Origin: Olleya sediminilitoris
GTDB lineage: Bacteria > Bacteroidota > Bacteroidia > Flavobacteriales > Flavobacteriaceae
NCBI RefSeq assembly: GCF_016785945.1
Contig: NZ_JAEMEF010000001.1
Span: forward strand, 62,001 to 126,000
Reading direction: 5' to 3'
Length of the DNA: 64,000 nt
Numbering within the stretch: the stretch's first letter is position 1; each line of letters begins with the position of its first letter. Made by a program: the position numbers and the translations under genes. This document shows positions 57,290 through 64,000 of the stretch, piece after piece. Under the pieces are notes generated by a model. It saw only the letters and a program-made list of their open reading frames with translations. It did not search any database and was not told where the DNA came from.

Positions 57290-58777
57290 TCACAAAGCAT
57301 CAAAACTAAGTCTCAACGTTTTAATAACAATTTCTATTTCACCCTCATTTAAATGTCCAAAACCTAAACGTATTGCACAAACAGCTTTACTTTGATACAA
57401 GATAGTTTTTGGCAGAAATAAATCGTACATTTTTGCTTTTTCGACTAATTTCACAAGTGATATACTAGGCTTAAAATTTATCCAAATCGCTAAACCACCT
57501 GTAGGCACTTGCCAAGTGGCATCATCTTTAAAATGGGTCGTTAAACATGCACATAAATAATCACGTCGTTGCTTATAAATAGTGATGTTTTTTTTGATTA
57601 AACGATGTATTTCTCCCTCAGAAATTAATTCGGTTAAGATTTGTTTCTGAATTAAATCTCCTTGTTTATCTAAAATTTGCAAGTAATTTTTGGCTTCATT
57701 TATAATATTTTCTGGAGCTACAACAAACCCAATTTGAAAACTAGGAAAAAAAGATTGTCCTAATCGTCCTAAATAAATAACGACTCCTGCTCCATCAGAA
57801 CTAGCCATAGGAAGCATCGCTGAACCTTCAAATTGAAAATCATAATCAAAATCATCTTCAATAATAGCAAAATTATAAGCTTTGGCTAATTGCAATAACT
57901 TTAATCGTCGCTCTGCTGTTAAAGTTACAGTTGATGGATATTGTCTATGAGCACAGACATACACACATCTAATACTGTTTTTGGTAAAATTCTTTTCAAT
58001 AAAATCGACATCTATTCCATAAGCATCTACAGGAATAGTAATTATATTTGCTCCTGCTTGTTGAAAAATCATATTAGATTTGTAATGGCTTAAATGACCA
58101 ACAAGTACAACATCCTCTTGTTTAATTAAAAGTTGTGAGACTATATACAAGCTCATTTCTGTACTTCGTGTACTGACTATATTATCAGGTTTTATATAAA
58201 AGCCTCTAGTAGCATTTAAGTAATTACATAATTGTTTACTAAAATTAGTGTAAGACTGTTCTTGGGTTTGATTCCATTTAGAGATTAATGAAGAACGCTT
58301 CATGGAAGCACTATACCATTTTGAAAACTGATGTGTTGGATGTAAGCGTAAATCTGGTTGTCCGTCGTTTATAACATATTTACTAACCGAAAACTCTTCA
58401 GTAGATGCTAAATTAAAAGACGATTGAAACTTAAAACCTGCAACTTTAGGATACGTTTTTAATTGCTCTAAACCCTGTAAAGCACCTTTTATTGCAGCTG
58501 TCTTTTTTTCTGGCATTAAAACAAATGTTCCTTTATTAGCAACTATATCTACCCAACCTTGCGAAGCCAACTCATCATAAACAGCTACTGCTGTATTACG
58601 GTTTATATTAAGTAAGACACTAAACTTTCTTGTTCCTGGTAGAGCAGTTCCTTCTGGTAAATACCCACGTTGGATAGCATTAATAATTTGTTGTGCAATC
58701 TGAATATAAATAGCTGTATTAGGCGATTTTTCAAAATGAATTAAAGATTTTAAGATACCATCAACCGGACTATGCAT
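57290..58777 (-). CDS. MocR-type GntR/aminotransferase-fold regulator lacking the PLP lysine
   Basis: 495 residues. The GntR winged helix covers about 18-85 (YIQIAQQIINAIQRGYLPEG, GTRKFSVLLNINRNTAVAVYDEL). A fold-type I aminotransferase domain follows (about 115-490; AIIEDDFDYDFQFEG with the PLP-ring Asp). The PLP-binding block, normally like GTFSKTLFPxLRIGY, reads GRLGQSFFPSFQIGF: the lysine is Gln341 and the phosphate-contact arginine is Gln348. The protein can therefore hardly form an internal aldimine. It is divergent from the BtuB-like receptor gene, 80 bases away, a usual regulator-target arrangement. Confidence 0.92.
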   Translation of the reverse strand: MHSPVDGILKSLIHFEKSPNTAIYIQIAQQIINAIQRGYLPEGTALPGTRKFSVLLNINRNTAVAVYDELASQGWVDIVANKGTFVLMPEKKTAAIKGALQGLEQLKTYPKVAGFKFQSSFNLASTEEFSVSKYVINDGQPDLRLHPTHQFSKWYSASMKRSSLISKWNQTQEQSYTNFSKQLCNYLNATRGFYIKPDNIVSTRSTEMSLYIVSQLLIKQEDVVLVGHLSHYKSNMIFQQAGANIITIPVDAYGIDVDFIEKNFTKNSIRCVYVCAHRQYPSTVTLTAERRLKLLQLAKAYNFAIIEDDFDYDFQFEGSAMLPMASSDGAGVVIYLGRLGQSFFPSFQIGFVVAPENIINEAKNYLQILDKQGDLIQKQILTELISEGEIHRLIKKNITIYKQRRDYLCACLTTHFKDDATWQVPTGGLAIWINFKPSISLVKLVEKAKMYDLFLPKTILYQSKAVCAIRLGFGHLNEGEIEIVIKTLRLSFDAL

Positions 58778-58857
58778 TGTTTTAAAACTGGACTACTTTA
58801 GTGATCCGGAAAGTTACGAAATTTGCAGCCTGAAAAAAAACACGAAATTAATTAATT

Positions 58858-60678
58858 ATGACATTCAAATATGTATTCATCTTAACAGCTTTGTTTTCCC
58901 TTACAACACAAGCTCAAGATCTAGGACAAGAGCAGCAACTAGACTCGGTAATAATAACCTCTTCACGTATAGATTTACCATTTAAGGAAAATTCTAGAAC
59001 CATTACTGTAATTTCTGCTACAGATATTAAAAACAGTGCTACAACTAATGTTGCCGATTTACTACAGCAAGTTGCTGGAGTAGATATTAGAAGACGTGGT
59101 ACTGCAGGAAGTCAAGCTGACTTGTATATTAGAGGTGGTGGTTTTGACCAAACTTTATTATTAATTGATGGTATAAAAATGGACGATGCACAAACAGGAC
59201 ACCATACCATGAATGCTGCATTACCACTTGAAGTTATTGAACGCATCGAGGTTATTAAAGGTCCTGCTGCTAGAGTATTTGGCCAAAACGCATTTACAGG
59301 AGCCATTAATATTGTAACCAAAAACAGTTTAACCAATACAGTTTCTGCAAAATTAGAAACTGGATCTTTTGGACAATTTAATGCTGGAGTCACTGTTGGT
59401 AGCAACTTAGAAAACTCGTCACACATTGTACATATAGACAAAATGACTTCTGAAGGTTACAGATACAATACAGATTATGACAATAGCAACTATTTTGTAA
59501 AAAGCGTTTTTAATAAAAAGAGAAAAGCTGTTGAAATGATTACAACTTTTCAAGAACGTAAATTTGGAGCAAACGGGTTTTATGCTCGTGCAAGTGCTGT
59601 AGATCAATATGAAGAAACACAAAATAGCTTAATGGCATTTTCAACTAAATTTAATAGCGACAATTTAACCATTAAACCTCGTTTATATTGGAAACGTAAT
59701 CAAGATGAATATGTTTATTTAAGAGAAGATCCTACAGTATACAGAAACTTACATATTACTAATAAAGTAGGTGCAGAAGCAAATGCCTCTTACAAATCCG
59801 AATTAGGTACTACTGGTTTTGGTGTAGACTTATCTAAAATTTATATAAGTAGTAATAATCTAGGTAACAGACAACGTTTTATGTCAAATCTGTTTCTTGA
59901 ACATCAATTTAAATTATTTGATGAAACAGTAGATGTAACACCAGGTATAGCTGTAACCTATTTTTCAGACTTCAAGTTTTATGCATTTCCTGGATTAGAT
60001 GTTGGAGTTAAAATTAACGACAACCTAAAAGCTTATGGTAATATTGGTTACACATATCGTATACCAACTTATACAGATTTATATTACAATGACTCTTTTA
60101 CCTCTGGAAACGAAAACTTAGAACCAGAAAAAGCATTTGCTCAAGAAGTTGGATTAAAATACAATACTGAAAAACTTTCTGTTTCTGCAGCTGTATTTAA
60201 TCGTGATGCTAAAGATTTAATAGATTTTATTAGACCTGATAATACCACAGAGGTATTTACTGCTAACAATATTGCAGAAGTAAAAACAAAAGGATTTGAA
60301 ATAGATGCTAAATACAACTTCAATGTAAACAACTACAAACAAACATTTTCAGTTGCTTACAACTTTCTAGAAGACAATATCTTAGATCAAAACAAAGATT
60401 TATCTAGGTACTCTTTAAACACTTTAAAGCATCATTTTACATCACGTTTAAGCACTAAGCTATTTAAAAACGTAAGTCAAAATATTGTTTATAAACATGC
60501 CGAGCGTACTACAGGTGACAGTTATAATGTTTGGGATGCATCCATAGATATTAACCTAAAACAATTTACATTAACAGCAACTGCTGGTAACATTTTTAAC
60601 GCAGAATATATTGAGGCTGGCTTTGTACCAATGCCACCAAGTAATGTGTTATTTGGACTGCGTTATAACTTTAACTAA
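58858..60678 (+). CDS. BtuB-like TonB-dependent receptor
   Basis: 606 residues, with no carboxypeptidase-regulatory domain. Signal peptide ends at TTQAQ; a TonB-box-like region QQLDSVIITSSRIDLPF precedes the plug (about 45-160, LLQQVAGVDIRRRG, LYIRGGGFDQTLLLIDG, VIKGPAARVFGQNAFTGAINIV). The 22-strand-type barrel ends LFGLRYNFN. Size and plan are close to BtuB and to small siderophore receptors. No cobalamin riboswitch fits into the 80-base upstream gap. It is divergent from the MocR-type regulator and upstream of the JmjC/cupin_8 gene. Confidence 0.93.
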   Translation: MTFKYVFILTALFSLTTQAQDLGQEQQLDSVIITSSRIDLPFKENSRTITVISATDIKNSATTNVADLLQQVAGVDIRRRGTAGSQADLYIRGGGFDQTLLLIDGIKMDDAQTGHHTMNAALPLEVIERIEVIKGPAARVFGQNAFTGAINIVTKNSLTNTVSAKLETGSFGQFNAGVTVGSNLENSSHIVHIDKMTSEGYRYNTDYDNSNYFVKSVFNKKRKAVEMITTFQERKFGANGFYARASAVDQYEETQNSLMAFSTKFNSDNLTIKPRLYWKRNQDEYVYLREDPTVYRNLHITNKVGAEANASYKSELGTTGFGVDLSKIYISSNNLGNRQRFMSNLFLEHQFKLFDETVDVTPGIAVTYFSDFKFYAFPGLDVGVKINDNLKAYGNIGYTYRIPTYTDLYYNDSFTSGNENLEPEKAFAQEVGLKYNTEKLSVSAAVFNRDAKDLIDFIRPDNTTEVFTANNIAEVKTKGFEIDAKYNFNVNNYKQTFSVAYNFLEDNILDQNKDLSRYSLNTLKHHFTSRLSTKLFKNVSQNIVYKHAERTTGDSYNVWDASIDINLKQFTLTATAGNIFNAEYIEAGFVPMPPSNVLFGLRYNFN

Positions 60679-60745: not shown

Positions 60746-61609
60746 TTGAGTTTAGACTTACAAGATATACCAAGAGTAAAAAGTATAACTAAACAGGATT
60801 TTATTAAAAATTATTTTAAGCCACAAAAGCCTGTTGTTATAGAACAATTTATTACCGATTGGCCAGCCTATACTAAATGGAATCTAGAGTATATAAAAGC
60901 TGTTGCAGGTGATAAAACTGTACCATTATACGACGATAGACCTGTAGATTATAAAGATGGTTTTAACCAGCCTCATGCAACAATGAAAATGAGGGACTAC
61001 GTAGATTTACTTAAACGTGAGCCTACAAAATTTAGAATTTTTCTATGGAATGTTTTAAAAGAAGTCCCTCAACTTCAAAAAGATTTTAAGTTTCCTGACT
61101 TTGGATTACGTCTAATGAAGGGATTACCAATGTTGTTTTTTGGCGGTCGTGATAGCTATACATTTATGCATTATGACATAGACTTGGCTAATATTTTTCA
61201 TTTTCATTTTGAAGGCGAAAAACAAATAATTTTGTTTGATCAAAAACAAAACAAACATCTTTACAAAGTACCACACGCTTTAATTACACGAGAAGATATA
61301 AATTTTTCAAATCCTGATTTTAACAAATGGCCTGCTTTAAAGAATGCTAAAGGATGGCAGTGTCAATTAAATCATGGTGAGGTTTTATACATGCCAGAAG
61401 GTTATTGGCATTATATGCGATACATAACTCCCGGATTTTCAATGAGCTTACGTGCAATAGCACGAAATCCAAAAAATTTAACAAAAGCTATATACAATGT
61501 TTTTATAATGCGTAATTTTGACAACTTAATGCGTCGCATTAAAGGTCAAAAATGGATTGATTGGAAAAACAAGAAGGCCATAATTAACACCAATAAGAAT
61601 TTAAATTAA
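60746..61609 (+). CDS. JmjC/cupin_8 Fe(II)/2-oxoglutarate dioxygenase-like protein
   Basis: 287 residues from a TTG start; the first internal Met is about 75 residues later, inside the domain, so TTG is the likely start. Family features: PRVKSITKQDFIKNYFKPQKPVVIE, the iron facial triad HYD in FMHYDIDLANIFHFHFEG and the distal His in MPEGYWHYMRYITPG, and the oxoglutarate-contact Lys region KQIILFD. Members hydroxylate proteins or other molecules; relatives in bacteria include ribosomal oxygenases. The target is unknown. It is followed by a small outer-membrane protein gene after 10 bases. Confidence 0.88.
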   Translation: MSLDLQDIPRVKSITKQDFIKNYFKPQKPVVIEQFITDWPAYTKWNLEYIKAVAGDKTVPLYDDRPVDYKDGFNQPHATMKMRDYVDLLKREPTKFRIFLWNVLKEVPQLQKDFKFPDFGLRLMKGLPMLFFGGRDSYTFMHYDIDLANIFHFHFEGEKQIILFDQKQNKHLYKVPHALITREDINFSNPDFNKWPALKNAKGWQCQLNHGEVLYMPEGYWHYMRYITPGFSMSLRAIARNPKNLTKAIYNVFIMRNFDNLMRRIKGQKWIDWKNKKAIINTNKNLN

Positions 61610-62675: not shown

Positions 62676-64000
62676 TTATAAACTATACTTTAATGATACT
62701 ATTAAGTTTCTGCCAGGAGCAGCAATACCTGATGAATACGTTTTATATCGTTGGTCTGTAATGTTCTCTAGAGCTGTTGTTATGGTAACATCTTCACCTA
62801 ATTGATATTGCGTTCTTAAATTTAAAGTATACCAAGCGGGAGCGTAAGGATTACCGTTTTCATCTAATGCATAAATATAATCCTTTTCATACTCAGAAGG
62901 TGCCAATTGCTCAAACGATAAGGCATCATTATAATTAATAAAACCATCAACTTTAAACTTATTTTTTTGCCAAATTAAATGCGTATTTCCAAAATTTGGA
63001 GCGACATGCCTAACAGGTAACTCAATCCCTTCAGTTTCTTCTGTTCCTCCAATGACATTATACTGTGAAGTTAATTTTAAAGCTTTAGAAAAATTAATCT
63101 GAGCACCAATTTCAAAACCATAAATCCATGATTTGGAAGCATTTTGTATGGATTGCACATTACTTAACTCACCATCATATATAATTTGCGATTGTCCATT
63201 TAAAGTACCATCACGTCTTACTAAAGCATTATCTAAATACGTATAATACGTTGCCATATCTAAAATAAAAGTCTTATCAAAATCTAATTTTAATCCTAAT
63301 TCACCACTGTAAGCGTATTCTGGATCTAAATTATTATTAGGCACTACTACAGACCCTGGTTCTGAGTCAAACACCTTGCCTATATCGTCTATATTAGGCG
63401 CTCTAAAGGCTGACGATAAGTTAAATTTCCATTGTAATAATTGGTTAGGTGACCATGTAACACCTGCTGTTCCTGTTAATGCATTAGACGTATTATCTGA
63501 TTCTGAAAATGGCAAATTTAAATACACATTATTAGCAGTGAAATCTGCCTTCTGAGTCACAGTATTGTAGCGTAAACCGGATTGAAACACAAACTTTTGA
63601 TTTGGTTTGTACTTATAACTTGCATAAAGAGCAGCACTACTCCAAGTTGATCCATCAGGATACCTTGACACTGTTGGTTGTGTTGTATTATCATCTATAT
63701 ACTCTGTAAAGCCAATAGATCCAACTGTATTATAAACATACTCAAAACCATAGAATAAAAAGGAGGTTTCATTTAAAGCTTTTTCAAAATCTATATTAAA
63801 AGACAATGCATCTACAGACTCTTCTCTAACACTTCTTTCATTATCCTGAAAATCTCTATCCATTCTACTTTCCTGAAAGTTTTGATAAGCCAATGTTGTT
63901 TTTATATTATCATAAAAAGTCGCTTGGCTACTTCTTTTAACAACATTAAGATTGGTCATAAACCATTTTTGTGGACCATAATTCCACTCGGCTGACCTTA
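62676..64000 (-). CDS. TonB-dependent receptor, C-terminal barrel part (5' end outside window)
   Basis: The frame is open from the window edge at 64000 (about 441 residues visible); the upstream codons RSAEWNYGPQKWF run continuously into MTNLNVVKRSS, so the Met at 63959 is internal. The barrel features (FQSGLRYNTVTQKADF, FNLSSAFRAPNIDDIGKVFDSEPGS, NPEYAYSGELGLKL-like strands, TALENITDQRYKTYSSGIAAPGRNLIVSLKYSL in pieces) match the haem/haemoglobin- or siderophore-type receptors with the conserved FRAPN strand and final APGRN turn. The N-terminal plug and signal are off the window. Confidence 0.9.
   Translation of the reverse strand, partial: RSAEWNYGPQKWFMTNLNVVKRSSQATFYDNIKTTLAYQNFQESRMDRDFQDNERSVREESVDALSFNIDFEKALNETSFLFYGFEYVYNTVGSIGFTEYIDDNTTQPTVSRYPDGSTWSSAALYASYKYKPNQKFVFQSGLRYNTVTQKADFTANNVYLNLPFSESDNTSNALTGTAGVTWSPNQLLQWKFNLSSAFRAPNIDDIGKVFDSEPGSVVVPNNNLDPEYAYSGELGLKLDFDKTFILDMATYYTYLDNALVRRDGTLNGQSQIIYDGELSNVQSIQNASKSWIYGFEIGAQINFSKALKLTSQYNVIGGTEETEGIELPVRHVAPNFGNTHLIWQKNKFKVDGFINYNDALSFEQLAPSEYEKDYIYALDENGNPYAPAWYTLNLRTQYQLGEDVTITTALENITDQRYKTYSSGIAAPGRNLIVSLKYSL

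Follow-up and report, generated by a model that had tools for sequence, protein, structure and literature searches.

An apparently BioL-derived MocR-type regulator without the PLP lysine, divergent from a predicted TonB-dependent biotin or desthiobiotin receptor in Flavobacteriaceae

The window, that is, the whole stretch of 64,000 nucleotides that was analysed, carries on its minus strand the gene of a 495-residue MocR-type regulator (57290..58777) in which a glutamine stands at the place of the PLP-binding lysine, and next to it, in divergent orientation, the gene of a 606-residue TonB-dependent receptor (58858..60678, plus strand). The reading that we favor, with a probability of roughly two in three, is that this is a BioL-derived regulator that works without a PLP aldimine and that controls, and represses, a TonB receptor which scavenges biotin or desthiobiotin. 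MocR regulators and BioL are already known, and in the portions of the open-licence PubMed Central papers that were searched we found neither a natural and conserved MocR that is free of the PLP lysine nor a biotin-linked TonB receptor.

Residues of the cofactor site and their conservation

The N-terminal GntR-type winged helix-turn-helix domain of the regulator (residues 24-86, 58520..58708; this domain and all the codons below are on the minus strand) was found with PF00392 at 37.5 bits compared to the Pfam cut-off of 27, and Arg50 in it is invariant in 48 aligned rows. The C-terminal fold-type-I aminotransferase I/II domain was found with the Pfam model PF00155 at 48.5 bits. When NCBIfam MocR-type models were examined, none among the best 25 of 51 families reached its cut-off, the nearest being PdxR with 279.1 bits compared to 320. 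The preliminary description had placed Gln341 (CAA, 57755..57757) at the position of the Schiff-base lysine and Gln348 (57734..57736) at that of the arginine that contacts the PLP phosphate. Both placements were confirmed by translation of the gene, in which the two residues lie within YLGRLGQSFFPSFQIGF and the longer stretch LGRLGQSFFPSFQIGF, and by alignment of this motif, without any gap, to LGAFSKSLIPSVRI and LGTFSKILAPGFRIG of archaeal aminotransferases and of PdxR from B. clausii (7pq9). Because this alignment is gapless no shift brings a lysine onto the PLP site, and a shifted alignment hiding a lysine was rejected on this ground and on that of conservation; the basic residue nearest to the site is Arg338, and at this position 69 of the 94 orthologues have lysine and 25 have arginine. 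The AlphaFold2 model, made with 48 aligned sequences, had a mean pLDDT of 88.3 and a pTM of 0.81 and its top Foldseek matches were GabR and PdxR, which agrees with the earlier statement that the fold around the site is intact.

Two further changes, which the preliminary description did not list, are the loss of the PLP-stacking aromatic residue and the change of His278 to arginine. The stacking aromatic is Tyr205 in GabR (PMC6677901), and its place, which was assigned here by aligning the protein without gaps to the DPGY stretch of PdxR, is taken by His231 (58085..58087). Of the 94 rows of the Gln clade 59 have Asn and 29 have His at this position; all 22 outgroup rows have Tyr, Trp or Phe there and all 8 Lys-bearing BioL-type rows have Tyr. 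Residue 278 (57944..57946) is Arg throughout the 94 rows of the Gln clade, and each of the 22 outgroup rows has His instead. Asp308 (57854..57856), at the place of the aspartate that meets the pyridine nitrogen, is present in 93 of the 94 rows of the clade and in every one of the 22 outgroup rows. Arg470 (57368..57370) is kept in 94 of 94 clade rows and is aligned to the arginine in the MRLNF stretch of 1x0m; in aminotransferases this arginine binds the substrate carboxylate. Of the features by which a MocR/GabR protein is recognized, the GntR winged helix-turn-helix, the aminotransferase fold and the pyridine-nitrogen aspartate are present, and the Schiff-base lysine, the phosphate arginine and the stacking aromatic are replaced.

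Conservation was examined in a clade alignment of 94 rows made up of the window protein, 80 loci (L002-L081) that were kept from 101 relatives found in a contig scan, and 13 further loci. The titles of the 80 loci give the family Flavobacteriaceae, except that those of a few MAGs go only as far as Flavobacteriales or Bacteroidia, and since these loci and the other genomes overlap in species their counts are not independent. Thirteen duplicate sequences were left out, and L189 (G883:C1:143-1279), a degenerate second regulator copy with internal stops in a genome that has an intact copy elsewhere, was left out of the trees and motif counts. Position 341 was Gln in 93 of the 94 rows, the exception being the Lutibacter citreus locus L063 with Lys, and at position 348 there were 86 rows with Gln and 8 with His. 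Of the outgroup MocRs counted, which come from overlapping draws of 296 phylum, 395 class and 397 family genomes, all 22 have Lys and Arg at these positions, so the replacements in the clade go beyond chance. In the wider tree Lys341 was present in all 33 rows outside the clade, one of which (L106) has Lys348 instead of Arg. Codon 341 of L063 is AAG and its Gln348 is unchanged, and this Lys inside the Gln clade is possibly a reversion. As far as the available text of PMC6677901 goes, Lys312 and Asp279 were conserved over all the MocR clusters examined there.

A sequencing error or a pseudogene is hardly credible as the source of Gln341 and was rejected by this conservation and by the frame, which is open over its full length, even when the degenerate copy in G883 is counted in its favor. 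Because Gln341, Gln348, the change of the aromatic and Arg278 are conserved, the cofactor half of the cleft gives the impression of having been rebuilt, not of having decayed; the residues of this presumptively rebuilt cleft, namely Gln341, Arg278, Phe344, Gln348 and Arg470, are kept in 86 to 94 of the 94 rows. It might be argued from the retention of Asp308 and the aminotransferase fold that the protein binds PLP or PMP non-covalently and senses vitamin B6 or an amine, but with the lysine, the phosphate arginine and the stacking aromatic all gone, and with linked genes that concern biotin, we consider this improbable. The earlier suggestion that the regulator has changed its ligand or lost it fits the replacement of these three residues and the conservation of what replaced them, which does not decide between a changed and a lost ligand.

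Relatives of the regulator and a common operator

Gln-type MocRs (at least 700 bits) were found in 49 of 397 Flavobacteriaceae genomes. A careful tree of 47 rows, built without columns 340, 341 and 348, gave one clade of 36 rows (bootstrap/SH-aLRT 100/100) within which all the receptor-linked MocRs of the set fall, and a quick tree of 85 rows agreed on this clade. Where Lys and Arg are both kept (L130 and L139-L145), the MocR gene is divergent to a BioE-like gene, bioF, bioD and bioB in 8 of 8 cases; the name BioE-like rests on the published bioEFD gene order, and the protein before bioF (L139:5518-6135) had no Pfam, NCBIfam or PDB match by sequence. The Lys is at 338-342 and an Arg is at 50 in the 6 of these 8 Lys-bearing BioL-type members that have a complete start, and the identity of the Gln-type MocR to the MocRs linked to bioE-like, bioF, bioD and bioB genes was 42-47%. 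The window protein seems to descend from BioL-type MocR repressors of biotin synthesis.

Inside the 36-row clade position 341 changes at least 7 times, among Lys, Arg, His and Gln, and position 348 leaves Arg twice, both times in receptor-linked lineages; in L148 and L150, which belong to the receptor-linked lineages that left Arg348, the receptor is no longer next door. The sister group nearest to the Gln clade (L131, L132, L133, L136 and L169; 98/95) is receptor-linked and has Lys, Arg or His. Receptor-linked relatives with Lys are L131, L136, L147 and L149, and the one relative L111/L146 has Arg at 341 and is divergent to bioB. An independent-pair test of receptor linkage versus the loss of Lys or Arg had only 2 pairs. 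Two observations on single relatives may be added, one being that a lipoate-protein ligase gene (lplA, L146:5527-6516) lies beside the Arg341 MocR and bioB of L146, and the other that L136 has an EamA neighbor whose TIGR00950 match was below the cut-off.

The operator is common to the Gln-type and the BioL-type regulators. In the window it consists of three half-sites, given here on the plus strand. Half-site 1, CCGGACTA (58765..58772), lies within codons 2-5 of the MocR gene, on the other strand, and is at the same place in 98 of 98 loci; half-site 2 is CTGGACTA (58788..58795); and half-site 3, GTGATCCGGAAAGTT (58801..58815), which is inverted, belongs to a long pattern. Next comes what we presume to be the -7 promoter region from which the receptor gene is read, TACGAAATTTGC (58815..58826, plus strand), which we take to correspond to the Bacteroidota consensus; the TA and TTTG columns are conserved in 89 unique rows and the spacing is not ideal. 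The intergenic consensus of the Gln clade (89 unique rows) is AACCGGACTA(N)TTTTAAAACTGGACTA(N)TCCGGAAAGTTACGA(N)TTTTGC. When the operator was counted without the duplicates L170-L173, L177 and L178, CCGGACTA was at its fixed place in 98/98 Gln-clade rows, 8/8 Lys-bearing BioL-type rows, 1/1 for L146, 6/6 of group IIa and 3/4 of group IIb. It was also present in 8 of 33 outgroup rows, 7 of them at the same place, and therefore half-site 1 may predate the clade. The stricter pattern with half-sites 2 and 3 was found in 88/98, 8/8, 1/1, 4/6, 1/4 and 2/33 of these sets, respectively. Under half-site 1, MocR codons 3-4 are AGT CCG in 97 of 97 unique genes, and these were the most uniform of the 83 conserved codon columns examined; elsewhere in these MocR genes CCG makes up 10.4% of the Pro codons.

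In the genome to which the window belongs the long pattern, with 3 mismatches allowed, matched once, at the receptor gene, and its reversed control matched 0 times. This single match speaks against a wider regulon in this genome, which was rejected. The sole other CCGGACTA of the genome is at C32:251326, with no window gene or biotin query gene within 3 kb, and the reversed control of CCGGACTA had 9 occurrences. No second target was seen in the 12 Gln-clade genomes that have bioB, as the long pattern occurred once in 11 of them, at the MocR start, and 0 times in G758. At 13 receptor loci without an adjacent MocR, six operator hexamers were looked for in the 130 bp before the receptor gene, and none was present at any of them. 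A natural deletion control is offered by one of these 13, L218 (G801:C1:1329000-1336000), from a congeneric genome, which keeps the order DUF2007, receptor, cupin and DUF6646 and has no MocR and no operator hexamers.

The receptor and bioB across genomes

The receptor has the plug (PF07715) and barrel (PF00593) domains according to Pfam. The divergent position of the regulator to its putative target, already pointed out in the preliminary description, is strongly supported: the receptor is divergent and adjacent to the MocR in 80 of the 80 kept loci (in L017 the contig ends within the receptor gene), the arrangement is the same at all 19 of the additional loci (L170-L188), and the operator lies at the intergenic region. 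The label BtuB-like stands as a distant family resemblance and not as a function, since the B12 equivalog TIGR01779 gave 150.6 bits compared to a cut-off of 599.7, which leaves a B12 receptor identity unsupported, and the context is that of biotin or desthiobiotin and not of B12. Other matches of the receptor in its own genome were at most 59 bits, and the receptors beside the more distant MocRs L090, L092, L094 and L098 scored 241-266 bits. Cupin_8, DUF6646, RecX and flotillin neighbors were rejected as partners because they come and go and change order between loci at which the receptor is constant. The Cupin_8 protein (60746-61609) is often 3' of the receptor, also where there is no adjacent MocR (L217, L218, L223, L225 and L227), and a second outer-membrane receptor-like ORF (62676-63959) lies behind recX, and such a frame is next to recX too in L205, L210, L219 and L220.

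For the census of 397 Flavobacteriaceae genomes three receptor candidates were scored per genome, genomes with at least 390 bits were taken as receptor-positive and bioB was identified with TIGR00433. bioB was present in 225 genomes, the receptor in 140 and both in 16. Thus, bioB was found in 16 of 140 receptor-positive genomes compared to 209 of the remaining 257. Fisher's test gave an odds ratio of 0.03 and a p-value of about 4e-44, which should not be taken literally because the genomes are related. In 330 better genomes bioB was found in 15 of 103 receptor-positive genomes compared to 197 of 227 others, and therefore draft gaps do not explain the complementarity of receptor and bioB. Nine weaker receptor matches (below 380 bits) were counted as negative; when they are counted as positive the figures are 19 of 149 compared to 206 of 248. 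Of the 15 genera that have both receptor-positive genomes and genomes with bioB and without the receptor, 14 have a receptor-positive member without bioB (in g303 this is one of two receptor-positive members), but this list of swaps omits genomes without both genes and is an illustration only.

The receptor is present in every one of the 49 genomes with the Gln-type MocR, and bioB in 12 of them. In 11 of these 12 (G752, G768, G794, G698, G730, G786, G924, G939, G961, G787 and G973) bioB is directly behind the receptor on the same strand, the exception being G758. The same order was also found in 6 of the 80 named loci (L003, L004, L005, L018, L021 and L038) and in the group IIb genome G726 (L222); group II genomes with bioB include G025, G726 and G998. 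bioA was above the cut-off in 2 of the 49 Gln-clade genomes (G758 and G787), both of which also have bioB, and in 14 further ones TIGR00508 matched below the cut-off, which we read as other aminotransferases. In G787 (L210) the receptor-bioB pair lies by the Gln-type MocR, and bioA, bioD-like and bioF-like genes are a few kb away, which makes a fuller pathway. The biotin gene census comprised bioB, bioA and BioY; BioY as an inner-membrane partner was found in 0 of 49 Gln-clade genomes, and the genome of the window had no bioB, bioA or BioY match.

From this genome context the receptor probably imports biotin or desthiobiotin. Desthiobiotin use by marine bacteria that have bioB only has been described, with the route of desthiobiotin entry left open (PMC9561691), and in the set of that paper, as given in its available text, most Flavobacteriia hold the last four biotin genes; in our set 172 of 397 genomes are without bioB. 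Among open-licence PubMed Central papers we found none on a TonB-dependent biotin or desthiobiotin receptor, and in the available portions of PMC5343134 and PMC9123166 no TonB-dependent biotin receptor is named. To the possibility that the receptor carries another cargo (B12, haem, lipoate or a siderophore), with the biotin context inherited or coincidental, we give little credence. BtuB does provide the nearest named models and solved structures, and lplA lies near L146 besides bioB, but the score is far below that demanded for B12, the complementarity with bioB is strong in spite of the relatedness of the genomes, bioB so regularly follows the receptor where the clade has it, and the operator is one that BioL-type regulators also have.

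Proposed regulation and comparison with known systems

In the regulation that we propose, the regulator would bind the half-sites between both genes, one of which is inside its own start, and would repress the receptor, and probably also itself, when the biotin supply is adequate. Repression would be by occlusion, for which half-sites 2 and 3 are suitably placed, as they immediately precede the presumed -7 element. If biotin sits in the former cofactor cleft, its valerate carboxylate could be held by Arg470 and its ureido ring could be met by Asp308, and the predicted ligand would be biotin, desthiobiotin or none. Only tentatively do we go further and suggest that the protein may sense biotin or desthiobiotin by binding it directly and without PLP, that it may have come from a PLP-based sensor of a precursor, and that it may guard a TonB biotin receptor in biotin-auxotrophic Flavobacteriaceae. 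Counter-evidence to the favored reading comes from the several receptor-linked relatives that keep Lys, from the Lys of L063 in the Gln clade, from the Arg of the bioB-linked relative L111/L146, from the 91 of 140 receptor-positive genomes without the Gln-type MocR, from the group II genomes that have bioB and from CCGGACTA in 8 of 33 outgroup rows; furthermore, Gln341 is not tied to pathway loss, because G758 and G787 have bioA and bioB.

A regulator with no ligand at all, its cleft vestigial, which as a constitutive (auto)repressor merely sets the level of the receptor, is in our view unlikely, as the cleft looks rebuilt. This reading does draw on EnuR K302H, which is not inducible and represses constitutively (PMC8739950), and on the finding that 91 of the 140 receptor-positive genomes are without the Gln-type MocR, from which it follows that this regulator is useful but dispensable. 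In Elizabethkingia meningoseptica BioL the K340A and R50A mutants had biotin gene transcription raised about 4-fold, whereas deletion raised it about 40- and 13-fold (PMC12915131), and since K340A is partly derepressed the loss of the Lys alone should weaken repression, which counts against the favored reading. The published Lys mutants thus disagree and the natural Gln form is readable from neither of them.

If the favored reading of a BioL-derived repressor of a biotin or desthiobiotin receptor holds, the natural series of Lys, Arg, His and Gln would show a transcription factor of a PLP-dependent type giving up the site of its cofactor and keeping its operator, and the step from cofactor-based to cofactor-free sensing could be studied one residue at a time. 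A further prediction is that Bacteroidota which are seemingly unable to make biotin take it, or desthiobiotin, up actively through the outer membrane, and such a route would be relevant to vitamin exchange in the sea.

BioL of E. meningoseptica is a MocR-family repressor of bioEFD and bioBA that senses 8-amino-7-oxononanoate, with K340 predicted to bind PLP, and TonB is not mentioned in the main text (PMC12915131). The window protein groups with the MocRs linked to bioE-like, bioF, bioD and bioB genes (100/100), and BioL is likened to these by gene order, residues and description, its own sequence not being in the tree. R50 and the divergent layout are the same, and half-site CCGGACTA and CTGG are common to the window regulator and the MocRs linked to these biotin genes. 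Unlike in BioL, Gln stands here in place of Lys340, the stacking aromatic and the phosphate arginine are lost, and the target is a TonB receptor (with bioB in some relatives) and not a biotin synthesis operon; the BioL ligand is probably not made here, judging from the absence of bioA and bioB matches in a census of bioB, bioA and BioY. GabR and PdxR, the top Foldseek matches, have the same winged helix-turn-helix and fold-type-I aminotransferase domain, but they carry PLP on a Lys, have other targets and are only about 20-25% identical. The receptor is like BtuB in its plug and barrel, its length of about 600 residues and its nearest named models, and differs in scoring far below the B12 equivalog cut-off and in its biotin gene context. 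Finally, the PLP lysine is replaced both here and in EnuR K302H, but the latter is an engineered laboratory mutant whereas the replacement described here is natural, conserved and accompanied by changes in the surrounding residues.
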